A DNA stretch of 20,731 bases from a virus: the IMG/VR virus record IMGVR_UViG_3300032238_000969, positions 1-20,731 of that record. The stretch is one strand, 5' to 3'. The position numbers and the translations under genes were made by a program. The notes below the pieces were generated by a model. It did no database searches, was not told the origin of the DNA, and saw nothing but the letters and a program-made list of their open reading frames with translations. This document shows, piece after piece, positions 11,212-20,731 of the stretch; the first letter of the stretch is position 1, and every line of letters starts with the position of its first letter.

Positions 11212-11259
11212 AAAAAGACCCACCCTCACCGCAGTGACGCAGTGAAGGTGGGTCTTTTT
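11212..11259. terminator. Bidirectional intrinsic terminator
   Basis: AAAAAGACCCACC (11212-11224) pairs with GGTGGGTCTTTTT (11247-11259), extended inward by TCAC/GTGA across one mismatch, with A-tract and T-tract on the two sides. It can end + transcripts from 11204 and - transcripts of the WhiB gene, whose stop codon at 11258-11260 overlaps the stem edge. It divides the two transcriptional arms. Confidence 0.85.
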
Positions 11260-11575
11260 AGTTTTTGGGTTTACTGCGACTGGGGGAGAAGTTGATCCCT
11301 CCCCACACGCCGTGTTTCTCTTGATTATTTATAGCAAAGTTGTAACACTCAATGCGCACGGGGCATCGGTTACACAACTTGATGGCAAGTTTAGTGGAGT
11401 TGAGGCTCATGGAGTAGAACCCTTTGTTACCAAAGTTCTTGCACAGAGCCTCATCACGCCACTCACCCAGTTCAACGTATAAAGGCTGTGGGAACCTAAA
11501 TGCGTGCTCGTCAAAAGGGGGGGACATGGCGTCCCCCCCTTTCTCCACGACCTGCTGGTCGTTGGCGTCTGTCAT
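11258..11575 (-). CDS. Second WhiB-like Fe-S regulator
   Basis: 105 aa; ATG at 11575 overlaps the stop of the DUF932 gene (ATGA). Cys45, Cys68, Cys71 and Cys77 give C-x22-C-x2-C-x5-C, followed by G89-V-W-G-G93, the standard WhiB core. Before the core is a 35-residue polar extension absent from the other WhiB gene; an internal ATG at codon 17 could give a shorter form. Spacing between the first two cysteines and the sequence differ clearly from the WhiB at 9825, so this is not a recent duplicate. It is the last gene of the - strand arm, and its level would depend on readthrough of the whole arm or on a promoter near 12659-12688. Confidence 0.93.
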   Translation of the reverse strand: MTDANDQQVVEKGGDAMSPPFDEHAFRFPQPLYVELGEWRDEALCKNFGNKGFYSMSLNSTKLAIKLCNRCPVRIECYNFAINNQEKHGVWGGINFSPSRSKPKN

Positions 11576-12612
11576 GCAGACACCAGTTGGTCAATGGTGT
11601 TGAGCACAAGACGGTCGCTGGCTTCTGCCTTGCCGATGATGGCGTTCAAAGCGTTGCGCTCCGAGCGTGAGACATCGGTACCTGCAAAGTGATGCTGGTA
11701 GGTGTTGAATGCTTGAAGCACACCCAACTTGGTTCCTGTCCAGTCCTTCACACGCTCATCTGTCTTGTAGATGTGGCGGATGAGTTCACGCTTGTTCTGC
11801 ACACGAGCCTGCACCTGTGGGCGAACCTCAATGCTGAGGTCAACAGGGATCAGTTGCTCAATGATGGCTTGGAACTCATTGTCAGTGACCACCTGTGAAG
11901 ACAGGCGCTCAATCTCAGCCACGAGGTCATCAGTGAACTCATGCACGATGCCAAGAGCATCACGCACGTTCTGCAAGCGACCGATGCTGTGCTTGCTGTG
12001 ACGCACCTTGTGCTGTGCGGTGGATTCACCGAGAGCACCAGCAAGGGTGTTGTCGCACACCACGATGGTGGCAATTGCCTTGTAGGTGGTTGACAGCGTG
12101 CCGTCATGCGAGGTGCATGCGAGCAAGTGTGGGCGGACGTTGAAGCCTGACGGAGTCTTGATCGTGTCGGGCAATTCCACCGTGACGTATGCCTTGCCAC
12201 CGTTGCGCAAGAGACCTGCGGTGCCGATAGCGAGATTGTCATCATCGATGATGTTGGACACGGTATCCAAGAGCCACTTCTTGTAGGAGTGAACTTGGTA
12301 TCCCGACTTAAACACATTGAAGACGGTGTCGTCATCACTGCGCACGATTGCTTTGCGGTCAGGGTCAGCGATGTAGCGAGTGCCACCATTGTGTGGGACA
12401 CCTACGAACACTGGCGCTTCAATGGCTTCCCAGTTGAAGAGACGACGTAATACGTCGTCTACTGGGATGGCGTGTGCATAGTGGTTGTCTTCAATACCGA
12501 GTTGCTGACGCAACACGGGGTTGTTGTGCCATGCATTGCCACGACCATAGGTCGGGTCAGTGAAGCCAATTAATTGGAAGGTATTAAGCACCTCTGCTGA
12601 TTCTGCGGACAT
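11572..12612 (-). CDS. DUF932 phage/plasmid-like protein
   Basis: 346 aa from ATG at 12612. The body follows the DUF932 (TIGR03299-type) pattern: an N-terminal region with GNAWHNNPVLRQQ, the segment AIVRSDDDTVFNVFKSGYQVHSYKKWLLDTV, then GLLRNGGKAYVTVELPD, LLACTSHDGTLSTTYKAIATIVVCDNTL, and helices to the end. Proteins of this group are frequent on phages and plasmids; their biochemical role is not established. Homologues of the family tend to be expressed early, but the sequence here does not show timing. It follows an 85-nt intergenic leader with TTGG repeats and is coupled to the WhiB gene. Confidence 0.88.
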   Translation of the reverse strand: MSAESAEVLNTFQLIGFTDPTYGRGNAWHNNPVLRQQLGIEDNHYAHAIPVDDVLRRLFNWEAIEAPVFVGVPHNGGTRYIADPDRKAIVRSDDDTVFNVFKSGYQVHSYKKWLLDTVSNIIDDDNLAIGTAGLLRNGGKAYVTVELPDTIKTPSGFNVRPHLLACTSHDGTLSTTYKAIATIVVCDNTLAGALGESTAQHKVRHSKHSIGRLQNVRDALGIVHEFTDDLVAEIERLSSQVVTDNEFQAIIEQLIPVDLSIEVRPQVQARVQNKRELIRHIYKTDERVKDWTGTKLGVLQAFNTYQHHFAGTDVSRSERNALNAIIGKAEASDRLVLNTIDQLVSA

Positions 12613-12697: not shown

Positions 12698-13156
12698 TTA
12701 ATCGCCTGAGTCCACTTTGTAGTGGTAGTCACATTTGGTGCATTTGTATGACCAGTAGCAGTTACCCAGTTGGGTACCTTCCATGGTGTGCCTACAGCCG
12801 ACGGTGACACGGAAGAAGACCCCGTCGTCGTGGGCGTAGGGATTACAGATGAACTGAATATTCCCACCTCCACCAGCCTGACCACCGATTGGCTCACGCA
12901 CGGCGATGAAGTAGTAGCAGGTAGGTGTGAACCCACGGGCGATGATCTCCCGTTGCAGGTAATCGGGCAAGTTGTTTGTCATGCACACCCAAGTCTTGCC
13001 ATGCGCCTCTTTGGTGCTCGCACCTGCCTTGAAAATTGCTTGTGGGGTATCAAGTACCTCTACCTTGATGGGGTCTTTCATAAGTTCATCAACCCCACCC
13101 TTCTCTTCAATTTCAGCGTTGATGGATTCCCATTGCTTGAGTTGGTATGCGTCCAC
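12698..13156 (-). CDS. Unknown protein with C-terminal zinc ribbon
   Basis: 152 aa from GTG at 13156, which overlaps the upstream TAG by one base and has GAGGAG 8 nt upstream; a GTG at 13165 is possible but lies against that ribosome site. The N-terminus is helical and acidic. The middle includes KTWVCMTNNLPDYLQREIIARGFTPTCYYFIAVREP, and a Gly-rich loop follows. The C-terminus has GCRHTMEGTQLGNC-YWSYKCTKCDYHY, where Cys and His residues could form a zinc ribbon. No known family. It lies between the small membrane protein and the DUF932 gene. Confidence 0.7.
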   Translation of the reverse strand: MDAYQLKQWESINAEIEEKGGVDELMKDPIKVEVLDTPQAIFKAGASTKEAHGKTWVCMTNNLPDYLQREIIARGFTPTCYYFIAVREPIGGQAGGGGNIQFICNPYAHDDGVFFRVTVGCRHTMEGTQLGNCYWSYKCTKCDYHYKVDSGD

Positions 13157-13389
13157 TATTGCCACTCCTCTTCTTCAACGATGTAGCGGTCAGGGTTGAT
13201 GCGTTGGTCGTGGCGTAGCACGTTCTTGAAAAGGATCACAGAAAAGATCCCACACAACAGACCCCATGAGGTCGTAGGTGGAAAATCAACGCCTTCCAGC
13301 CCACCGATCAATATGATTCCAATAGCGAACAACGCTCCAGCAGTGAGTGCTTTTGTACGTTGCCACCTGCTCCAGTCTGTAACTTTCAT
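13156..13389 (-). CDS. Two-helix membrane protein, 77 aa
   Basis: ATG at 13389 with AAGGAGG upstream is the natural start; the frame continues upstream but that part is the previous gene. Two membrane segments are clear: about residues 14-31 (ALTAGALFAIGIILIGG) and 40-58 (SWGLLCGIFSVILF). The N-terminus is basic and aromatic, and the C-terminus is charged and ends VEEEEWQ. Size and layout suit a small holin-like or superinfection-exclusion protein, but no lysin is adjacent, so the role is open. Its ribosome site is inside the GUCC/GGAC hairpin at 13397-13409. Confidence 0.75.
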   Translation of the reverse strand: MKVTDWSRWQRTKALTAGALFAIGIILIGGLEGVDFPPTTSWGLLCGIFSVILFKNVLRHDQRINPDRYIVEEEEWQ

Positions 13390-13390
13390 G

Positions 13391-13558
13391 TTAAATGTCC
13401 TCCTTGGACGTTGGTTGGTCTGAGAACGCACGGTCGCATGCTCGGCATACGTAGCCGAACACACGCCCGAGCGTGGTGTTGACATCCACACCTGCATGTG
13501 GGATGCCGTCTACTGGTTGCTCGCACCAAATGCAGTTGGTGAATTCAATTGTGTTCAC
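13391..13558 (-). CDS. Mini zinc-ribbon protein, 55 aa
   Basis: GTG at 13558 overlaps the upstream TGA (GTGA) and is preceded by GAGG in the end of the upstream gene; the frame stops at TAA 13391-13393. The product has Cys9-x2-Cys12 (NCIWCEQP) and Cys38-x2-Cys41 (YVCRACDRAF), a classic four-cysteine zinc ribbon, and ends DQPTSKEDI. The last ten codons also carry the CCAACCAAC motif and the hairpin that surrounds the next gene's ribosome site, so this DNA has two functions. Zinc-ribbon proteins this small often bind nucleic acids or proteins. Confidence 0.75.
   Translation of the reverse strand: MNTIEFTNCIWCEQPVDGIPHAGVDVNTTLGRVFGYVCRACDRAFSDQPTSKEDI
13397..13418 (-). promoter_or_regulatory. 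CCAACCAAC plus SD hairpin before membrane-protein gene
   Basis: In - sense CCAACCAAC (13418-13410) is followed at once by GUCC-AAGGA-GGAC (13409-13397), a 4-bp hairpin whose loop and 3' arm hold the Shine-Dalgarno for ATG 13389. It lies inside the coding end of the zinc-ribbon gene, which ends 1 nt before the start. Ribosomes finishing that gene would open the stem. Confidence 0.6.
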
Positions 13559-14010
13559 TCTTCAACCTCGATGAGGTCGGGAGCATGCTTCACAAAGTAT
13601 GTGTCGTAGCCAGCGATGTATGCGTCAAGCACAGCACTGGACTTCTCATTGGGGTCTATGTCTTCAAACTCATCGTCGCTGGTGGCTTCTGCCTGCCTGA
13701 TGAGGTCGCCCAACAACTCAGGGATGGACTCCCCAGCCCATTCACCCGAGAGAGGTGACGGGCAGTACCAGCCATCAAGGGCGTCGTAGAAGGCACTGAG
13801 GCGCCCACGGTAGTACGCCTTGGTGTAAGGGCTGATGTCTACATTGTTGAGCCACCAGTGCCCCTGATCTTGTATGAACTCCACCACGCCGTCCCAATTC
13901 TCAAAGGCGTACTTCTCGGATCGGGAATTATTGACGTTAGTGAACTCCAAGATGTACGGCAGTGACGCCACCTCGGTTTTGACGATGTTGATATTTAACA
14001 AGTTGCTCAT
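13555..14010 (-). CDS. Unknown acidic protein, 151 aa
   Basis: ATG at 14010 with AAAGGG upstream; the frame is open to 14142, but that stretch lies in the previous gene. N-terminus MSNLLNINIVKTEVASLPYIL, then a Trp/Tyr-rich middle (ENWDGVVEFIQDQGHWWLNN, SPYTKAYYRGRLSAFYDAL) and an acidic C-terminus (SDDEFEDIDPNEKS, DLIEVEE). No membrane segment, signal or family recognised. The last codons provide the start site of the zinc-ribbon gene by overlap (GTGA), so the two are coupled. Confidence 0.72.
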   Translation of the reverse strand: MSNLLNINIVKTEVASLPYILEFTNVNNSRSEKYAFENWDGVVEFIQDQGHWWLNNVDISPYTKAYYRGRLSAFYDALDGWYCPSPLSGEWAGESIPELLGDLIRQAEATSDDEFEDIDPNEKSSAVLDAYIAGYDTYFVKHAPDLIEVEE

Positions 14011-14012
14011 GG

Positions 14013-14264
14013 CTATGCCCTTTCTGCGTTGATGTATTGGAATATTTTCGATGGGTCTTTGCCAACAGCATGTGCAAAGCGTGCGAGCGCTTCTGCTTCT
14101 GTGTACGCATGTAGTACTGGGAATTGAATAGTGACATTCCATTCACGCAGAATGTTGTGCGTCTCGCATGATTGGCATACGCCTTCATCATCAAAGGCTT
14201 CGTACGTGGCATTGCAAGTAGCGTTGCGACACCACAGTGGTGGTTGGTTGATTGGTTCTGACAT
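14013..14264 (-). CDS. Zinc-ribbon protein, 83 aa
   Basis: ATG at 14264 with AGGAAA upstream. Cys12-x4-Cys17 (CRNATC) and Cys30-x2-Cys33 (CQSCETH) suggest a zinc ribbon over the first 36 residues. The second half is a beta strand and helix (VTIQFPVLHAYTEAEALARFAHAVG), a pattern seen in small phage proteins. The CCAATCAACCAACC sequence found in leaders elsewhere in this arm here falls just inside the coding region (codons 4-9, EPINQPP). Function unknown. Confidence 0.72.
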   Translation of the reverse strand: MSEPINQPPLWCRNATCNATYEAFDDEGVCQSCETHNILREWNVTIQFPVLHAYTEAEALARFAHAVGKDPSKIFQYINAERA

Positions 14265-14274
14265 TTTGTTTTTC

Positions 14275-14853
14275 CTAACTAAGTGATGAATTGAGGTCGT
14301 CGTATTCGTCGGAGAGCCATTCTCGGAAAGACTTAACGTCTCTCTCTTTTACGAGAACAGTGATCGCCGTTGAAAACAGGTTGGATGTTGGGTCAGTCAC
14401 GATAGCAACTGAACAGGGTGGATATATCTCTTGGGTGAGTAAAGCCTCAGCCCACTCATTGAAGTTTGCCTTGCGGTCAGCAACTGGGTCACCCCAGCCA
14501 CCTGTCGTCCAGCCACTGAGCACGTCAACCCAGCCAGTGATGACTGTGTTGTGGTACCCACGCCAGCCATCGCTGGAGATCCACTCACGCCTGATCCTGA
14601 GACCTCCGTCAACGGGGTCTCCGTACTCATTGAAGATGTCAAGGTCGCCAACGTAGATCTTCACTACGAGGTCACCCTCAATGAGGTGGATGGTTGAGCA
14701 TGACTGGATGTCACTCTCATAGCACGAGTAACAGACGTAGTCCTCCTTGACGGATGACCAGCGACTGTCGTCGTTGCCTTCAGGGTCTACTGTCTCTTTG
14801 CATTCAACGCACAGGTGCTCTTCAAGAGCATCAATGTCTACTTCGGTATTCAT
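14275..14853 (-). CDS. Unknown protein with N-terminal zinc ribbon, 192 aa
   Basis: ATG at 14853 is preferred over ATG at 14871 because AAGGAGGTC lies between them, correctly placed for 14853. Cys15-x2-Cys18 (LCVECKE) and Cys41-x2-Cys44 (YVCYSCYES), with a further Cys near 52, form a zinc ribbon. A beta-rich segment follows (IHLIEGDLVVKIYVGDL, GLRIRREWISSDGWRGYHNTVITGW), then a helical C-terminus (KSFREWLSDEYDDLN). No known family; the fold suggests a small adaptor or inhibitor. Its start is under one of the SD hairpins (14856-14870). Confidence 0.75.
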   Translation of the reverse strand: MNTEVDIDALEEHLCVECKETVDPEGNDDSRWSSVKEDYVCYSCYESDIQSCSTIHLIEGDLVVKIYVGDLDIFNEYGDPVDGGLRIRREWISSDGWRGYHNTVITGWVDVLSGWTTGGWGDPVADRKANFNEWAEALLTQEIYPPCSVAIVTDPTSNLFSTAITVLVKERDVKSFREWLSDEYDDLNSSLS

Positions 14854-14855
14854 GT

Positions 14856-14889
14856 TGACCTCCTTGGTCATTGAGTGGTTAGTGATTTA
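14856..14889 (-). promoter_or_regulatory. SD hairpin leader, UGACC/GGUCA
   Basis: In - sense: CACTAACCACTCA, then UGACC-AAGGA-GGUCA (14870-14856), a 5-bp hairpin with the Shine-Dalgarno in loop and 3' arm, 3 nt before ATG 14853. The repeat element is degenerate (AACCAC rather than CCAACC). Stem sequence differs from the 13397 and 17343 sites while pairing is kept. Confidence 0.55.
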
Positions 14890-15183
14890 TCAAAAGGGTG
14901 ATACATAGGAACTGGAGATGCCTTGAGAGTTCAACGCTTCTGCGATAGAAGCGATCTCTGCATCATGCGACCAGCCAAGAGAGAGCCAGTAGATGTCGAT
15001 CTGAAGGGTCGCCCACTCTTCTTCAGTGAGCGCCCTCCCAGCCACGTTCTCTGCTTCTTGCCTGTCGTGCGGACAGATGACCAGTTCAAAGAAGTCAGCG
15101 ACTGCACTGAGCACTGCGCTCTGTGACAGTTCGTTGATGTCCAACTGCTCTAGGAAATGGGTTGTCTTCTCGTAGGTATTCAT
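14890..15183 (-). CDS. Unknown acidic helical protein, 97 aa
   Basis: ATG at 15183 with GAAGGAG upstream; it overlaps the upstream TGA (ATGA). The protein is mainly helical and acidic (NTYEKTTHFLEQLDINELSQSAVLSAVADFFELV, then ALTEEEWATLQIDIYWLSLGW) and ends SSSYVSPF. A CPHDRQEA segment at about residues 37-44 has one Cys and one His. No family is recognised. Coupled to the preceding gene. Confidence 0.7.
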   Translation of the reverse strand: MNTYEKTTHFLEQLDINELSQSAVLSAVADFFELVICPHDRQEAENVAGRALTEEEWATLQIDIYWLSLGWSHDAEIASIAEALNSQGISSSYVSPF

Positions 15184-15695
15184 TGCAGTGCTCCTTCTTG
15201 GATAACGATTGTGATGTTGTAATTAATTTTTGATGTGTTGATCTTCCAGCCATCGTTGTGTTCAATGCCGTCCTTCAAGTCAAACCACTCTTGCTCAGTG
15301 GCGTAGTAGAAGATCTGATCGTCTCCGATACCAAAGGAGTCAGAGACGACGTCTTCGCCCTCGTATTCTTCAGTGCCGAAGGAGATGTACTGGCTCTCGG
15401 GCTTGTAGGAGTCATTCCATGTGACCTCTACCCAAGCGCCGATGGCTTGTGATTGACCTCGTGCCACGACTTCTTCCTCTTCAACACGCTTGATGTATTC
15501 CACAGCAAACCACTTTGGCTCGGTGAGGTCGTGGTTCTCGTCGTAGTAGCCATCATCGCCCCACTTGAGGTCTCGCACCCAAAAGTGCGTACCTGAATTG
15601 GTGCGTGATGTCACAACGTGGCGAGTGATGGTTCCACGATATTTACGAGAAACGATGTCTCCATTTTTAAGTTTGTCTAGCGCTGTCTTCTTCAT
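15180..15695 (-). CDS. Unknown protein, 171 aa
   Basis: ATG at 15695 with GGAGGAAAA upstream, overlapping the upstream stop by 4 nt. The N-terminus is basic and looks like a small beta-barrel (LKNGDIVSRKYRGTITRHVV, then TNSGTHFWVRDLKWGDD). The middle is acidic (RVEEEEVVARG, GTEEYEGEDVVSDSFG), and the C-terminus is a set of strands (GWKINTSKINYNITIVIQEG). No domain recognised. It is one of the run of small acidic proteins in this arm that could target host proteins, an inference from composition only. Confidence 0.7.
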   Translation of the reverse strand: MKKTALDKLKNGDIVSRKYRGTITRHVVTSRTNSGTHFWVRDLKWGDDGYYDENHDLTEPKWFAVEYIKRVEEEEVVARGQSQAIGAWVEVTWNDSYKPESQYISFGTEEYEGEDVVSDSFGIGDDQIFYYATEQEWFDLKDGIEHNDGWKINTSKINYNITIVIQEGALQ

Positions 15696-16024
15696 TGTTT
15701 TTCCTCCACGGAGTTGTTTGATACGTCGGTGATCTTGCCTGTCTTGGGATTGAATGTGACCAGTCGTAAGTACGTGCTGTAGTCGGTATCGCCATATTCT
15801 TGGGAGTCTTTGAACTCAACTGGGTACACGCTGACGTGCGTGACTTCGTCTCCGTTGTCTTCTTCCCATATGAACACGTTGAAGTCAAAGGCTTGGTCTT
15901 CAATGATGAGTGACTCCCACGCATCAATGTCGTTGCAGTAGGTGTCTGCATTAATTATTTTTCGTGCATGCTTAACAAGCACTGTCTTGTGTTGAAGGAT
16001 GTCTTCAAGGGTTGATGTTTTCAC
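15692..16024 (-). CDS. Unknown acidic protein, 110 aa, GTG start
   Basis: GTG at 16024 with AGGAGG 6 nt upstream inside the SD hairpin at 16027-16041. N-terminal helices (TLEDILQHKTVLVKHARKII) precede a beta-rich acidic part (FDFNVFIWEEDNGDEVTHVSVYPVEF, YLRLVTFNPKTGKITDV). The GTG start combined with a 150-nt structured leader suggests tightly limited translation. No family is recognised. Coupled to the next gene (ATGA 15692-15695). Confidence 0.7.
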   Translation of the reverse strand: MKTSTLEDILQHKTVLVKHARKIINADTYCNDIDAWESLIIEDQAFDFNVFIWEEDNGDEVTHVSVYPVEFKDSQEYGDTDYSTYLRLVTFNPKTGKITDVSNNSVEEKQ

Positions 16025-16175
16025 TGTGACCTCCTAGGTCATTGTTGGTTGGTTAATTGGTGCTCGGGCAGTAAGTGCCCTCAGAGTGCATGGGGACTGG
16101 AACTTAGGAGGCAAAAGCCCCATGCACCCTGAGCGCACCACGGACTCTCGCCCGTGATGCCCCGTGGTTGATTGC
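16025..16175 (-). ncRNA. Structured leader element B (RNA family copy 1)
   Basis: A 151-nt gene-free stretch, read in - sense. First comes a box GGGGCAUCAC (16163-16154) within a CCACGG/CCGUGG stem. Next is a 16-bp helix CUCAGGGUGCAUGGGG / CCCCAUGCACUCUGAG (16133-16118 with 16095-16080, one G-U pair) with a 22-nt loop containing CCUCCU. A stem GGCA/UGCC (16080-16066 area) follows, then CGAGCACCAA, CCAACCAAC (16052-16044), and the SD hairpin UGACCU-AGG-AGGUCA (16041-16027) just before GTG 16024. No open frame fits. It closely parallels the leader at 19262-19449. It could be a riboswitch-like or protein-bound leader. Confidence 0.7.
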
Positions 16176-16520
16176 TCAGTATTCGTCTTCGTCGGTTTCG
16201 TAGTCGTCTTCGTCGGTCTCGTGTGAGCCATCAAAAGAGATTGTGATCTCGATGATCCGACCGTTGTGGTCACGCTCAATGTAGACGGGGTAGGAGCCAT
16301 CTCCATAGCCAGTAGACACAGCGATTGCATTGCCATTAGCAAGCACACCAGCACCCTTCTTAGAGCACGTTGCAGAGCACGCACCGTTGTAAGAGTACGG
16401 GTAAGGCTGTGGCAGGTCGGCGCTGAACAACTCCTCCGTGATGAACTGGTCTAGGTAGCAAGGATCACCGATAATGATCTGACCACTGTCAACCCCAAAA
16501 TATCCGATGAGTTCACTCAT
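16176..16520 (-). CDS. Conserved SGQ/DPCY-type phage protein, 114 aa
   Basis: ATG at 16520 with GGAGG upstream; a longer frame to 16535 would include the ribosome site. The sequence begins MSELIGYFGVDSGQIIIGDPCYL and has GVLANGNAIAVSTGYGDGSYPVYIERDHNGRIIEITISF, a pattern of small beta-rich proteins (DUF4241-like as I recall) found in phages and bacteria; function is not known. Cys at 21, 48 and 52 could bind metal. The C-terminus is a tandem 21-bp duplication (16179-16199 and 16200-16220) encoding ETDEDDY/ETDEDEY, a strongly acidic tail. Confidence 0.7.
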   Translation of the reverse strand: MSELIGYFGVDSGQIIIGDPCYLDQFITEELFSADLPQPYPYSYNGACSATCSKKGAGVLANGNAIAVSTGYGDGSYPVYIERDHNGRIIEITISFDGSHETDEDDYETDEDEY

Positions 16521-16521
16521 T

Positions 16522-16785
16522 TTATATACCTCCATTAATTATTCTGTCTGATGGGATGATTCCGCAATTCAACAAGTCAATTGCGTTGCCAAGTTGTGAG
16601 GACAGTTCGTCCTCGTTGTCTATGTACTCACCATCACCGAGGTAGGCGTAACCCCACTCGTTGGTCTCGTTGTGGACGACGGTGCCTTCGTGGAAATGAA
16701 GTTCTTCTGCTTCGGTATCCCATTCCCATTTGCTGGTTGATGAGTTGTACGAGACAACAAAGTAATGCGTGTGCGTAGCGCTCAT
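16522..16785 (-). CDS. Unknown acidic protein, 87 aa
   Basis: ATG at 16785 with AAAGGAA upstream, overlapping the upstream TGA (ATGA); codons further upstream belong to the previous gene. The protein has an aromatic beta-like start (THTHYFVVSYNSSTSKWEWD), an acidic middle (LGDGEYIDNEDELSSQLG) and a helical end (AIDLLNCGIIPSDRII). No family is recognised. Its start junction is a 13-nt exact copy of that of the next gene upstream. Confidence 0.68.
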   Translation of the reverse strand: MSATHTHYFVVSYNSSTSKWEWDTEAEELHFHEGTVVHNETNEWGYAYLGDGEYIDNEDELSSQLGNAIDLLNCGIIPSDRIINGGI

Positions 16786-16958
16786 TCTGATTCCTTTACT
16801 TCCCATGGTGAGTCCCATGAAATGCTTCCATCTTGGTCAAGTGTTTTCAATTGGTCGTCGTCGTATGAGTAGTAAATCTCTAACGCTTCCTCTTCCGATC
16901 CAGCCTCCACTTCGTATGAGTGGTTCACTGTCTCGGTTACTTCAATTGTGTATTTCAT
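16782..16958 (-). CDS. DpnD/PcfM-like small protein, 58 aa
   Basis: ATG at 16958 overlaps the upstream TGA (ATGA) and has GGAGG 7 nt upstream; the frame ends at TGA 16784-16782. The first 28 residues, MKYTIEVTETVNHSYEVEAG followed by SEEEALEI, fit the strand-strand-helix pattern of DpnD/PcfM-like proteins, small factors common on phages and plasmids. The rest is acidic (YYSYDDDQLKTLDQDG) and ends KESE. The family resemblance is moderate; function is not established. Confidence 0.65.
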   Translation of the reverse strand: MKYTIEVTETVNHSYEVEAGSEEEALEIYYSYDDDQLKTLDQDGSISWDSPWEVKESE

Positions 16959-17335
16959 TCTGATTCCTCCAAACCTAGGGCTTCATTAAATGTTGTCTCA
17001 ATATCGTGGGCGAGATTCCATACTGAATTGGTGATCTCGTAACTTTCCCAATTTTCAAATGGCTCCCACACCACGATGTCTTCACTCTCTCCGATAGCGG
17101 AGAATGTTTCGTCGGATGTTTTGTCACCGTCAAAGTCGGACAGGTGGTAGCGCAATGCCACAGCCAGTGCGAGTTCTTTGACCTGTAGTGCTTTTGGACT
17201 GGACGTGGTGACGCCCCAGCCTTCTTCGCAGTCAGCGTTGATGTCCTGAAGCACGCTTTTGATAGCGCTGTCAATGAACACGTCCGCAGTGTATTCGTCG
17301 GGATGTGTGATTGTGACTAGTACATGGGTCTTCAT
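16955..17335 (-). CDS. Unknown acidic protein, 126 aa
   Basis: ATG at 17335 with AAGGAGG upstream inside an SD hairpin (17343-17354). The N-terminus is beta-like (THVLVTITHPDEYTADVFIDSAI), the middle is helical (LQVKELALAVALRYHL), and the C-terminus is acidic (VVWEPFENWESYEI, FNEALGLEESE). No motif points to a function. ATGA overlap with the next gene (16955-16958). Confidence 0.7.
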   Translation of the reverse strand: MKTHVLVTITHPDEYTADVFIDSAIKSVLQDINADCEEGWGVTTSSPKALQVKELALAVALRYHLSDFDGDKTSDETFSAIGESEDIVVWEPFENWESYEITNSVWNLAHDIETTFNEALGLEESE

Positions 17336-17342
17336 TTTGTTT

Positions 17343-17363
17343 GCCTCCTTAGGCGTTGGTTGG
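17343..17363 (-). promoter_or_regulatory. CCAACCAAC plus SD hairpin, GCCU/AGGC
   Basis: In - sense CCAACCAAC (17363-17355) is followed by GCCU-AAGG-AGGC (17354-17343), with the Shine-Dalgarno in loop and 3' arm, before ATG 17335. The repeat is also the coding end of the upstream gene (ATPTNA, stop), like the 13397 site. Confidence 0.6.
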
Positions 17364-17525
17364 TGTTGCTAATAGTTGTTCCCGTAAAGGAAGGATGCGA
17401 TTGACGAGCGCAACAATCTCTTCTTCCCATGTGTTTAATTCTCGTTGTGCTTTGGCGGAACGGTAAGTCGCTCTGTCCAGTTGCCAGTACAGCGCTTTCA
17501 ATTTTTCTTCAGGTGATAATTCCAT
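17349..17525 (-). CDS. Short coiled-coil protein, 58 aa
   Basis: ATG at 17525 with AGGAGG upstream in the hairpin 17529-17542; ends at TAA 17351-17349. Nearly the whole chain is one amphipathic helix (MELSPEEKLKALYWQLDRAT to NRILPLREQLLA), probably a coiled coil or helical hairpin. Its last codons ATPTNA carry the CCAAC motif for the next gene. It is preceded by the large structured leader C, so a 58-residue product has an almost equally long 5' leader. Confidence 0.68.
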   Translation of the reverse strand: MELSPEEKLKALYWQLDRATYRSAKAQRELNTWEEEIVALVNRILPLREQLLATPTNA

Positions 17526-17674
17526 TGGTGCCTCCTAAGGCATTAGTAGTTGGTTGCTTGGACTTGCGTCCCATGAGCACTGCGATGTGTTGTGAAAGGG
17601 GAAGACCCACACCGCAGTGCCCATGGCACGCCACAGAGTTGCCTCTGTGACGTCCTGAGCACCACCTCAGATTG
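17526..17674 (-). ncRNA. Structured leader element C (RNA family copy 2)
   Basis: 149 nt with no gene, read in - sense. Stem CUGAG/CUCAG (17670-17655). Then an 11-bp hairpin with one U-G pair and GCAA tetraloop (17653-17628). Then a 13-bp helix CAUGGGCACUGCG / CGCAGUGCUCAUG (17625-17572, one G-U pair) with a large apical loop. Then GGAC-GCAA-GUCC (17571-17560), AAGCAACCAAC (17559-17549), and SD hairpin UGCCU-UAGG-AGGCA (17542-17529) before ATG 17525. The 3' half mirrors leader D (GGGC-GUAA-GCCC then GAGCACCAACC); the 5' half is different. Confidence 0.7.
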
Positions 17675-19261
17675 TTAGCCGACCCACTCTTCAAGTAGGG
17701 AAGCGATGATTGAACCAGCCTCTGCACCGAGGTCACTAGCGAAGCCATCCAGCACGCTGGAGACGACTTCACTCTTGTGGTTGAGCAGTGCATACAAGCG
17801 ACCGTCCAGCGTCTCGCTGGAGTCCTTCTTGACGGCTGTGATGTGCCAGCAGGTGACCGATTCAGTCTGACCGATGCGGTGAATGCGATCTTCTGCTTGG
17901 CTGAGTGTGCTTGGCTCCCATGGCAACTGCAACGACACCCACTGGGTGCATGCCTTGTCGCCACTGGAGGTGAGCGTGAGACCAACACCTGAGGCTTGGT
18001 AGTTGCCAACGAAGATGTTGGCTTCACCCGAGCGGAAAGCGTCTACAGCCTTTTGCTTGGCTTCATCACCAAGACCACCGACAACCTTGACCGCACGCCA
18101 GCGTGGGTCTGTCTCAGCACGCTTGTCGCACTCAGCGATGAATGAGTCAATGACTGCACGGTGGTGAGCGAACACCACAACAGGCTGGTCGCCGTCAATG
18201 AGGCTCTCAACATGCTCAATGCCTGCCTCCACCTTTGCCTTGCCAAGTTCCTGCAAGAGCGCTGTGAGGCGTGTGATGGTCTCGGCATTGCTTGCCTTGA
18301 GCACTGCTTCACGTCCACCCTTGTCAAATACCCAAGCGAGAAAATCTGCCTCAATGCGGTTGTACTCACGCAACGTTGCGTCACTCAATGCGATAGCCAG
18401 TTGAGCACGACGCTTTGGTGGCAACTCAGTGAGCACGTCCAACTTGCGACGTCGGATGTACACCGTGCCACGCAACTTGTCGTGCAACTCAGCGGTGTTA
18501 CTTGCACCGTTGTATGTGTAGACAATCCGACGTCCGATGTTGACTGGCTGTGGATCGCAGTAGCGAAACTTGAACGAGCCAGCAGAGCCGAACACAGGAG
18601 CCAGCACACCGAGGATGTCTAACTGTGCGACAAGTTCTAGTGGCTTGTTGAGGCATGGAGTGCCTGAAGCGAGAACGATGTAGCCATCCTTGTCAATGGT
18701 CAGAGCCAGCGCCTGTAGAGCCTTGGTGCGCTGTGCACGGGGGTTCTTGGCACGGTGTGACTCATCAACCAGCAAGGAGCCGAAGCCAACCTTGCCGAGC
18801 GCTACAGCCCACGAGACGAGCGTGGCATCACCGATGACAATGACGTCAGCGTTGCTCAACTTGTATGGCTTGGCACCTGCGATGACTTCAACTGACAACT
18901 CGCCAGCAGTGAACTTCAACAACTCACGTCGCCAGTTCTCACGCAGTGATGGGGGCACCACGATGAGCGAGCGCTTGCCGTTGCGCTTCGCATGAAGTGC
19001 CACAGCGATTAATTGCGCAGTCTTACCGAGACCAGCCTCATCACCGAGCAGTGCACGGTGACCGATGCCCTCATGCTTGTGTTGAAGGATGTACTTGACG
19101 CCAGCACGCTGGTATGGGAGCAGTGGCAGTGACAGATCAAAGTCAAGGTCAGCGTCATGTGCACCTGAGAGGTTCGCACGATCTTGATCAATGACAATGG
19201 CGTTGGCGACTCGTGGCAATTGCGTGAGCAACGAGTCAAGGGTAGAACGGTGTGCATTCAT
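17675..19261 (-). CDS. SNF2-family DNA-dependent ATPase (SMARCAL1/HepA-like)
   Basis: 528 aa. Helicase motifs in order: PYQRAGVKYI (Q-like, 49-58), Walker A G73-DEAGLGKT81, motif Ia VVPPSLRENW, Walker B D166-E-S-H169, motif III S199-G-T-P202, a C-terminal RecA domain with VVVFAHHRAVID and GVGLTLTSS, and motif VI Q455-AEDRIHRIGQ465. This is the compact SMARCAL1/RapA-like form with no accessory domain. The class translocates on duplex DNA, reanneals strands, remodels forks or recycles polymerase; in phages it probably serves replication or recombination. It is the longest gene in the window and follows the most structured leader (D), with its ribosome site in a GCCU/AGGC hairpin. Confidence 0.95.
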   Translation of the reverse strand: MNAHRSTLDSLLTQLPRVANAIVIDQDRANLSGAHDADLDFDLSLPLLPYQRAGVKYILQHKHEGIGHRALLGDEAGLGKTAQLIAVALHAKRNGKRSLIVVPPSLRENWRRELLKFTAGELSVEVIAGAKPYKLSNADVIVIGDATLVSWAVALGKVGFGSLLVDESHRAKNPRAQRTKALQALALTIDKDGYIVLASGTPCLNKPLELVAQLDILGVLAPVFGSAGSFKFRYCDPQPVNIGRRIVYTYNGASNTAELHDKLRGTVYIRRRKLDVLTELPPKRRAQLAIALSDATLREYNRIEADFLAWVFDKGGREAVLKASNAETITRLTALLQELGKAKVEAGIEHVESLIDGDQPVVVFAHHRAVIDSFIAECDKRAETDPRWRAVKVVGGLGDEAKQKAVDAFRSGEANIFVGNYQASGVGLTLTSSGDKACTQWVSLQLPWEPSTLSQAEDRIHRIGQTESVTCWHITAVKKDSSETLDGRLYALLNHKSEVVSSVLDGFASDLGAEAGSIIASLLEEWVG

Positions 19262-19449
19262 TTTGTGTGCCTCCTAAGGCTTGATGGGTTGGGTTGGTGC
19301 TCGGGCTTACGCCCTCAGAAGCCACCAGCAGGACGCTGGTGACCTCTGAGGACGCCACCACCGAAGTGGTGACGCTCCTGCCCATTTAACTCACGCACCT
19401 GCCGAGCAGTAGCAGGTGACGTGTCTCGGGGGAGTGATGCCCCTAGATC
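19262..19449 (-). ncRNA. Structured leader element D (RNA family copy 3)
   Basis: 188 nt without a gene, read in - sense. Box GGGGCAUCAC (19443-19434). Stem CACCUGC/GCAGGUG (19418-19396), extended across a bulged U. A 10-bp hairpin with UUCG tetraloop (19375-19352, two G-U pairs). A 16-bp helix CUCAGAGGUCACCAGC / GCUGGUGGCUUCUGAG (19350-19314, two G-U pairs). Then GGGC-GUAA-GCCC (19314-19303), GAGCACCAACCCAACCC (to 19286), and SD hairpin GCCU-UAGG-AGGC (19280-19269) before ATG 19261. No U-tract follows any stem, so it is not a simple terminator. It controls, or is carried upstream of, the SNF2 gene. Confidence 0.75.
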
Positions 19450-20172
19450 TCAGAGCGTGATGTCACGCTGAAGTATTTCTTTCGCCTCCTTGAGGCTGGG
19501 GTACCACCAGCCATTGTTAGAGGCGCAGGTCTGACCGTAGCCAGCAGACAACGAGCGGTCGTCGGTGAGGTCACGACAGCACGAGACGCAGAAGCGATGC
19601 AGACGACCAATGCGTGACGCCTCCTCCTGCGTGAGCAGAGCGCCGTACGCCTTGATCTTGGCGACGCCACCTTGCCAGTACTCAAGGTGCCCTGTGCCGT
19701 CCTCATCAATGATGAGACGACGTGAAGCAAGGCGCCCGTTCTGTGTGGTGTACGCAACAGCGATGGTGCCGTCTTCAAGGAGATAGGTCTTGCCACTCTC
19801 GACCTCAATGCTCGGAGCACTGACGTCAACTGTGACGCACTGACCAGCGCTGTGGAAGGTGCGCCAGCCTGCGCTGGTCTGCACTGCCCAGCCGTCGCCA
19901 GCCTCCACGTACGAGTTGCACAGGGTGCACTTGTTGCCGTATCGGTTGGCGATGACACGCCCCTCGGGAAGGTGTGCATGCTCGGACTTCTTGGAGCAAG
20001 GGATGCTCTTCAAAGCCTCAATGAGTTTGCTCGCACCTTGACCCGTGAGGGTGTTGATGGACTGTGTCTTGATGTACTCGTCAAGATCGGTGATCTCAAG
20101 TGCATCTAGGCGCTCCAGTAAAAGCGAGCGCACAAATGACTGTTGCTTGACGGTGATGGTTGATGCAGACAT
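19450..20172 (-). CDS. Zinc-ribbon protein, DUF6011-like C-terminus
   Basis: 240 aa from ATG at 20172 with GAGGAGGAAA upstream, one base after the previous stop. Residues 7-58 form a helical module (VKQQSFVRSLLLERLDALEI, LTGQGASKLIEALKSI) that I recall at the start of several phage zinc-ribbon proteins. A central region has Cys82-x2-Cys85 and Cys112, with GDGWAVQTSAGWRTFH. The C-terminus has RFC195-VSC198-CRDLTDDRSLSAGYGQTC216, the DUF6011-type pattern C-x2-C-GxxLTD-x-S-x3-GxGxxC. It may bind DNA or proteins through zinc sites; the role is not known. It lies upstream of the SNF2 gene, separated by leader D. Confidence 0.75.
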   Translation of the reverse strand: MSASTITVKQQSFVRSLLLERLDALEITDLDEYIKTQSINTLTGQGASKLIEALKSIPCSKKSEHAHLPEGRVIANRYGNKCTLCNSYVEAGDGWAVQTSAGWRTFHSAGQCVTVDVSAPSIEVESGKTYLLEDGTIAVAYTTQNGRLASRRLIIDEDGTGHLEYWQGGVAKIKAYGALLTQEEASRIGRLHRFCVSCCRDLTDDRSLSAGYGQTCASNNGWWYPSLKEAKEILQRDITL

Positions 20173-20173
20173 T

Positions 20174-20695
20174 TTAAATTTCCTCCTCTAATCGGTATGT
20201 CTCAACTACTTCTATGACAACCTCATCTTGGTTGCCGTGTTCCTGTGGGTTGTTCTCCAGCCAGTAATCATTCTGACCACTGATGTCAGACTCGCCTGAG
20301 TGCCAGTGACAGTAATTGTTGACGTGGTTGTACTTGTCGTCCAACGACAACTGACTCCACTGCCATGGCAATTCTTTGGCAGTGAAGACGTCGTACTTGA
20401 GGTAGACGCACTCGGTGCCGTACGAGACTCTTGTGGTGGTTTCAATTTTTATTGATGTTGTGTACCTCGTAGGTGCTGGGACGACTGTCCATGTGCCGAC
20501 ACTAAACGGGTTGTACTTTTCGCTATTGGTATGCCGTTTTGCAAAAGCAAGAGCCTCCTCAAAACTGGCAAACCTCTTAGCAATATCTTGATGCGCTGTA
20601 GTGGAAACTCTCACCACAGCGTCTCCAGTATTGGCAAGATAAAAAGTGCCGTCGTGGCGTGTGCCTGTGAATACGAATTGAATGTTGTACTTCAT
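20174..20695 (-). CDS. Unknown acidic protein, 173 aa
   Basis: ATG at 20695 is preferred over ATG 20710 because GGAGGTC lies between them, correctly spaced for 20695. The N-terminus is beta-like (YNIQFVFTGTRHDGTFYLAN), followed by a helix (SFEEALAFAKRHTN), a strand-rich part (TTSIKIETTTRVSYGTECVYLKYDVF), and a polar, His/Asn-rich then acidic C-terminus (EVVIEVVETYRLEEEI). The ATTTAAA end also supplies the ribosome site context of the next gene. No family is recognised. Confidence 0.7.
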   Translation of the reverse strand: MKYNIQFVFTGTRHDGTFYLANTGDAVVRVSTTAHQDIAKRFASFEEALAFAKRHTNSEKYNPFSVGTWTVVPAPTRYTTSIKIETTTRVSYGTECVYLKYDVFTAKELPWQWSQLSLDDKYNHVNNYCHWHSGESDISGQNDYWLENNPQEHGNQDEVVIEVVETYRLEEEI

Positions 20696-20731
20696 GATGT
20701 TGACCTCCATTGGTCGGTTGGGTTGGTTATA
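20696..20731 (-). promoter_or_regulatory. CCAACCCAACC plus SD hairpin, GACC/GGUC (leader cut by window end)
   Basis: In - sense: TATAACCAACCCAACC (to 20716) then GACC-AAUGGA-GGUC (20715-20702) before ATG 20695. It is the same composite element as upstream of 13389, 14853, 16024, 17335, 17525 and 19261. Any larger leader lies beyond the window. Confidence 0.55.

Follow-up and report, generated by a model that had tools for sequence, protein, structure and literature searches.

A viral DNA window of 20,731 nucleotides (nt) (the whole stretch analyzed, IMG/VR record IMGVR_UViG_3300032238_000969), a 20.7-kb phage fragment, carries three full copies of one minus-strand RNA fold, here called B, C and D, each located just upstream of a gene. 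It is near certain that these copies belong to a homologous RNA family whose shape is conserved far more than its letters. In one phage group, this cis-acting RNA module occupies the majority of the wide junctions in a long early operon (early expression is presumed from the gene content: a helicase and many small proteins of unknown function), and it is found at the head of gene clusters that lack translational coupling to the preceding gene. The three-hairpin RNAs are probably punctuation marks that cut or control this long early message.

The fold consists of three adjacent hairpins, P2, P3 and P4, followed by a CA-rich linker and then by a Shine-Dalgarno hairpin. P2 comprises about 10-11 base pairs (bp), with the consensus GC(A/G)UCAC...GUGG(U/C)G, a variable stem end and a loop that is mostly of the GNRA or UUCG type. 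P3 comprises mostly 16-17 bp and always 14-20 bp (59 distinct copies), with a loop whose length varies widely between copies; P4 comprises 3-5 bp. When compared with dinucleotide shuffles, the three elements folded with z scores of -5.0 (B), -6.0 (C) and -6.0 (D), and none of the 200 shuffles did as well. Their parts are the following (bit scores are those of the model R2 described below):

16056-16164, minus strand: B core (P2-P3-P4), 69.9 bits
16135-16160, minus strand: B P2 hairpin with a GAGA loop and the conserved U.G pair (from the alignment and pair counts)
16080-16133, minus strand: B P3 hairpin, 16 bp (arms 16118-16133 and 16080-16095)
16066-16080, minus strand: B P4 hairpin, GGGC-ACUUACU-GCCC
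16029-16041, minus strand: B Shine-Dalgarno hairpin, GACCUAGGAGGUC, upstream of the GTG start at 16024
17550-17657, minus strand: C core (P2-P3-P4), 73.8 bits
17628-17653, minus strand: C P2 hairpin with a GCAA loop
17571-17626, minus strand: C P3 hairpin, about 18 bp
17561-17570, minus strand: C P4 hairpin, GAC-GCAA-GUC
17530-17541, minus strand: C Shine-Dalgarno hairpin, GCCUUAGGAGGC
19293-19379, minus strand: D core (P2-P3-P4), 81.6 bits
19352-19375, minus strand: D P2 hairpin with a UUCG loop, GCGUCACCAC-UUCG-GUGGUGGCGU
19314-19350, minus strand: D P3 hairpin, 16 bp
19304-19313, minus strand: D P4 hairpin, GGC-GUAA-GCC
19269-19280, minus strand: D Shine-Dalgarno hairpin, GCCUUAGGAGGC

Several of these parts had been recognized in an initial annotation of the sequence. 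The big helix CUCAG...CUGAG (P3), whose inner pairs differ between B and D and yet pair fully in both, is present as described, and so are the P4 hairpin, the CGAGCACCAA string, the CA-rich linker and the Shine-Dalgarno hairpin. The GGGGCAUCAC box that B and D were said to share is not homologous in position: it forms the 5' strand of P2 in B (around 16163-16154), and in D the string is found some 60 nt farther upstream, beyond the limits of the element. As for C, which had been credited with the last half of the element only, it contains a complete P2, P3 and P4 and scores as high as B. Upstream of D (window 19380-19449, minus strand), an extra hairpin, CACGUCACCUGC...GCAGGUGCGUG, accompanies this second GGGGCAUCAC string in a region that the model does not score; the two are perhaps a decayed copy of the element.

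A first model (R1), built on seven copies (the three window copies and four from a relative with 61% identity), recovered held-out copies at E values of 1e-7 to 1e-12 in two further genomes, G012 and G016 (G and L numbers are our own labels), together with a fourth copy in G001, a close relative (IMG/VR contig 3300042997_000757, 95 kb) that keeps B, C and D. A second model (R2), used along with a DNA pattern, brought the family to 107 copies in 22 phage records from about ten lineages, with about 3-9 copies per genome; because near-identical records are included, fewer than 107 copies are independent, and 59 distinct sequences were used for the statistics. In the 59 copies, 98.5% of the cells are paired, double changes occur in 25 of the 27 pairs, and the covariation score is 0.689, versus 0.235 after shuffling and at most 0.123 with the partners slid, in an alignment whose fitting to the structure favours the pairing score. 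The first alignment, made with MAFFT from seven sequences, agrees (98.9% paired, 0.723 versus 0.261); its P3 and P4 loops were trimmed and short fillers inserted, and the counts made on native sequences are more trustworthy.

The conserved positions lie within the helices. In P2, three pairs are conserved at fixed places (C-G in 59/59 copies, A-U in 57/59 and U.G in 49/59), as is a C-G pair in P3 (55/59), and the neighbouring pairs vary freely; G.U or U.G pairs are common at fixed places of P3. The spacer between P2 and P3 is one nucleotide long in 59/59 model alignments. A Shine-Dalgarno hairpin is found in 35 of 55 distinct leaders, as opposed to 5% in shuffles. Finally, B, C and D score 70-82 bits on the sense strand versus 14-17 on the antisense strand. 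This low reverse-strand score and the G.U or U.G pairs kept at fixed places indicate that the element acts as RNA and not as DNA. The loops are variable, and there is no conserved unpaired ligand pocket of the kind expected for a metabolite riboswitch. The family corresponds to no known riboswitch or Rfam class, in line with the initial annotation: a scan with Rfam 15 returned no match to the element in the window at E <= 1, and none was obtained at E <= 0.3 on G002, G012 and two further loci.

The location of the copies is as regular as their shape. In 103/107 cases, the end of the element is followed at a distance of 9-31 nt by a start codon on the same strand, and in 83/104 the element begins at most 25 nt after the previous stop codon. 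In a census of representatives of ten lineages, approximate in that it relied on a simple gene caller and on the element positions to discard overlapping false open reading frames, we counted 80 early-region junctions of at least 60 nt: 51 hold the three-hairpin RNA, 20 hold a second RNA and 9 hold neither. The 55 other junctions are overlapping or short. A variant of the three-hairpin RNA that is closed by a firm helix accounts for two of these nine, a hammerhead-like motif for one, and what resembles a divergent second RNA for two more; the last four resemble mis-called starts, a bare linker with a Shine-Dalgarno hairpin, or another hairpin. The early suggestion that these are phage leaders regulating separate genes therefore stands as far as family and place are concerned (covariation, and position before separate genes in 22 records), the regulation itself being a matter of interpretation.

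The second RNA is unrelated to the first: it is a three-way junction, CCCCAG-[4-bp hairpin]-UG-[stem UUCAAU stem]-A-CUGGGG, followed by a hairpin and a Shine-Dalgarno hairpin. It occupies other slots in five lineages (G016, G072, G073, G080 and G081, with near-identical contigs), as exemplified, among others, by:

L150 17658-17749, minus strand: second RNA
L210 3465-3562, plus strand: second RNA
L217 5110-5209, plus strand: second RNA
L209 11914-12008, minus strand: second RNA

Its 21 distinct sequences show 95.5% paired cells and a covariation score of 0.532 (0.156 when shuffled). The corresponding model found 33 copies in 8 phage contigs, all of which also carry the three-hairpin RNA; one weak match in a Streptomyces phage was not counted, and no Rfam match was found for this RNA. 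Two divergent three-way junctions, in L210 (2103-2197 and 2900-2996, plus strand), have T-loop-like 7-nt loops, UUCACGA and UUCGUGA. The type II hammerhead-like motif lies in a leader slot of G073 (IMGVR_UViG_3300043446_004424; L210 2442-2501, plus strand). It scores 32.6 bits for a cut-off of 37, has the core CUGACGA/GAAA/GUC with an extra U before stem II, and is the sole such match in the roughly 4.6 Mb scanned. The variant with a firm closing helix (P1) and a very long P3 occurs at L209 3812-3956 (minus strand), L150 11732-11868 (minus strand) and L217 13569-13732 (plus strand). Rfam matches to PyrR fall on this P1-closed variant and are weak and below the cut-off; this identity was rejected for the three-hairpin RNA.

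We tentatively propose that the three-hairpin RNA serves in the processing and insulation of the early mRNA between genes. The adjacent P2 and P3, of near-fixed length, would be read as a double-stranded substrate and cleaved, the host RNase III being the likeliest enzyme, as at the early-gene sites of phage T7. Each gene cluster would thereby be freed as its own mRNA, the upstream message would keep a stable hairpin at its 3' end, and the Shine-Dalgarno hairpin of the remaining leader would set how often the next cluster is translated. The outcome would be a tuned ratio of the early proteins made from one promoter, i.e. selective RNA processing and stabilization. We favour this mechanism because of the anatomy of the element, the presence of unrelated folds in the same slots, the hammerhead-like motif, which occupies a comparable slot and would agree with cutting being the common function, and the lack of internal sigma-70-like sites: a scan for promoters of the sigma-70-like type found 0 in window 13000-20731, for 5.3 expected, hence no sign of that promoter type at each leader. 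No minus-strand terminator-like site (a hairpin followed by a U-run, as in an intrinsic terminator) was found at B, C or D. Stem-loops and endonuclease sites are known to set upstream and downstream yields in polycistronic operons (PMC10667835), and RNase III acts on RNAs of lambda, T7 and T3 and is able to make a ribosome-binding site accessible (PMC5371410). It is also possible, and we hold it just as provisionally, that a few unrelated architectures (three-hairpin, three-way junction and, rarely, hammerhead-like) form an RNA punctuation code, present at most wide junctions of the early operon, that cuts or insulates cistrons; if true, one promoter would yield many separately tuned mRNAs.

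Several observations weigh against processing by RNase III. No RNase III domain was found in eight element-bearing phages, so that the host enzyme must serve. P3 alone is shorter than two helical turns, and efficient cutting may therefore need P2-P3 stacking. The hammerhead-like motif occurs just once, scores under the Rfam cut-off and has one extra U in its core. P2 and P3 contain more conserved specific pairs than a generic substrate of RNase III would be expected to require, E. coli RNase III sites displaying no striking sequence pattern (PMC5371410). Such pairs within helices fit a dedicated RNA-binding protein equally well, and this is the strongest rival to the processing model: one phage or host protein would read the CAU/GUG signature, with its U.G wobble, in P2 and P3, so that translation of the element-led clusters is switched together with the Shine-Dalgarno hairpin as output. 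The near-fixed helix lengths, the one-nucleotide spacer and the many copies before early genes of different function all agree with such an operator family, which we regard as possible, if rather unlikely, for no partner protein was found. Indeed, DUF6011-type and DUF932 proteins (window 19450-20172 and 11572-12612) are encoded by 8/8 element-bearing genomes and 0/4 element-free relatives, but the search by gene content revealed only the co-occurrence of the whole early module: the four near-complete portal relatives lack both the three-hairpin RNA and the early module with these proteins. Structure prediction and a fold search on the DUF6011 protein gave no informative structural match.

The same slots might also be filled by passive insulators or stabilizers, any strong structure being able to shield the ribosome-binding site from the upstream message and to block exonucleases in a REP-like manner. 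The unrelated folds found there and the elements starting right behind stop codons speak for this explanation, which is nevertheless unlikely: sequence-specific pairs and near-constant helix lengths would be unnecessary.

A two-state switch is more doubtful still. In B, the 3' strand of P4 could alternatively pair with a 5' CGGG (P1); in general, a 5' GGG-type strand and P4 would be competitors for one 3' CCC strand, with consequences for the linker and the Shine-Dalgarno hairpin. P1 complementarity exceeds that of permuted sequences in the 59 distinct copies (9.0 versus 7.9, 0/20000, in a permutation that ignores relatedness), its sequences differ between copies (CAACGGG/CCCGUUG, AUCGGGU/GCCCGAU, CUCGGG/CCCGAG), and one variant has a firm P1. 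However, a P1 of at least four pairs can form in only about a third of the copies, whereas P4 is nearly universal, and there is the absence of a conserved ligand pocket noted above. We therefore rejected P1 as a universal closing helix and retained it as an alternative in about a third of the copies.

The inheritance of the copies bears on a role at the DNA level, as a mobile repeat or a recombination linker for gene exchange. Near-identical copies precede different called genes in related phages (G072 L209:5127 and G080 L217:12139 are 100% identical), and a small gene stands between C and its partner gene in the window, not in G001. Yet the nearest copy lies in another genome for 50/55 copies, frequently in the corresponding slot, which makes most slots appear inherited, even though the gene behind a copy can change. 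The exception is the lineage G082 (L219 14443-17468), whose copies resemble each other most (up to 91% identity), which suggests a recent amplification within a genome. The mobile RNA cassette raised by the initial annotation thus finds little support and, as G.U pairs and covariation need RNA and the antisense strand scores low, a DNA-level role is very improbable. Equally remote is factor-independent antitermination, in which nascent hairpins bind RNA polymerase so that terminators are passed: a put RNA consists of a pair of hairpins separated by roughly one unpaired nucleotide, much like P2 and P3, but a single promoter-proximal copy would suffice, instead of 3-9 copies each at a gene start, and no clear coding-strand terminators were found between or near the elements.

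In the window, rightward genes converge with the leftward operon that contains B, C and D, each flanked by minus-strand genes:

11212-11259, no strand: bidirectional terminator-like inverted repeat at this point of convergence (21-nt arms, 90% complementary, A and T runs)
15692-16024, minus strand: gene behind B (110 amino acids, GTG start at 16024, no Pfam or PHROG match)
17349-17525, minus strand: small gene behind C (58 amino acids; slot 17336-17525), between C and gene 16955-17335
17675-19261, minus strand: gene behind D, SNF2-type helicase (528 amino acids)

The 58-amino-acid gene is missing in the near-identical contig G001, where C directly precedes the homologue of 16955-17335. ARAGORN detected no tRNA or tmRNA in the window or in five related loci. 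The host is likely actinobacterial, since the closest isolated phages, as judged by the portal protein (about 53% identity), are Streptomyces phages. No match to the model was obtained at E <= 1 in 334 kb of relatives without the element, and a model search in eleven isolated actinophages gave nothing convincing. A 16.7-bit match in Streptomyces phage Keanu was rejected as unconvincing, as was a 25-26 bit match in G005, in GC-rich DNA that does not fold into the element; 16 stretches retrieved from a genome collection with the DNA pattern do not match the model and were taken as chance. Comparison of the region with known phages by blastn gave no match, and nothing corresponding to phage leaders of the three-hairpin kind was found in the papers searched.

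A multicopy, strongly covarying family, absent from Rfam, stands before many early genes of an uncultured phage group. It would represent a novel type of post-transcriptional control in phages and provide a collection of intergenic parts tuned by nature, and it makes testable whether unrelated RNA folds were recruited to the same cistron-separating job.

Among known systems, the early RNase III sites of T7 and T3 are alike in that several structured sites separate the genes of a polycistronic early transcript, each located just before a gene. Here too, several sites lie between genes of one operon, and each has a long double-stranded helix (P3, 14-20 bp, with the adjoining P2 of about 10-11 bp). 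The present elements differ by their three adjacent hairpins, conserved pairs, Shine-Dalgarno hairpin and host group, and their cleavage is only proposed. The antiterminator RNA put of HK022 also belongs to an early phage operon and has neighbouring hairpins with a gap of about one nucleotide; here, there are three hairpins in many copies next to start codons, and antitermination is only a rival idea. Repetitive extragenic palindromes and bacterial interspersed mosaic elements (REP/BIME) are repeated intergenic hairpins found right after stop codons, whereas the elements described here always have one orientation, are linked to start codons and keep a fixed three-hairpin architecture. Ribosomal-protein and T4-type translational operators are leader RNAs with conserved helix positions before the start codon; by contrast, the three-hairpin RNA has many unrelated target genes, and the search for a partner protein found none. 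Finally, the processing or stabilization stem-loops of bacterial operons are likewise intergenic and thought to set expression ratios within the operon (PMC10667835), but they arise case by case, whereas here one homologous family is reused at many wide junctions.

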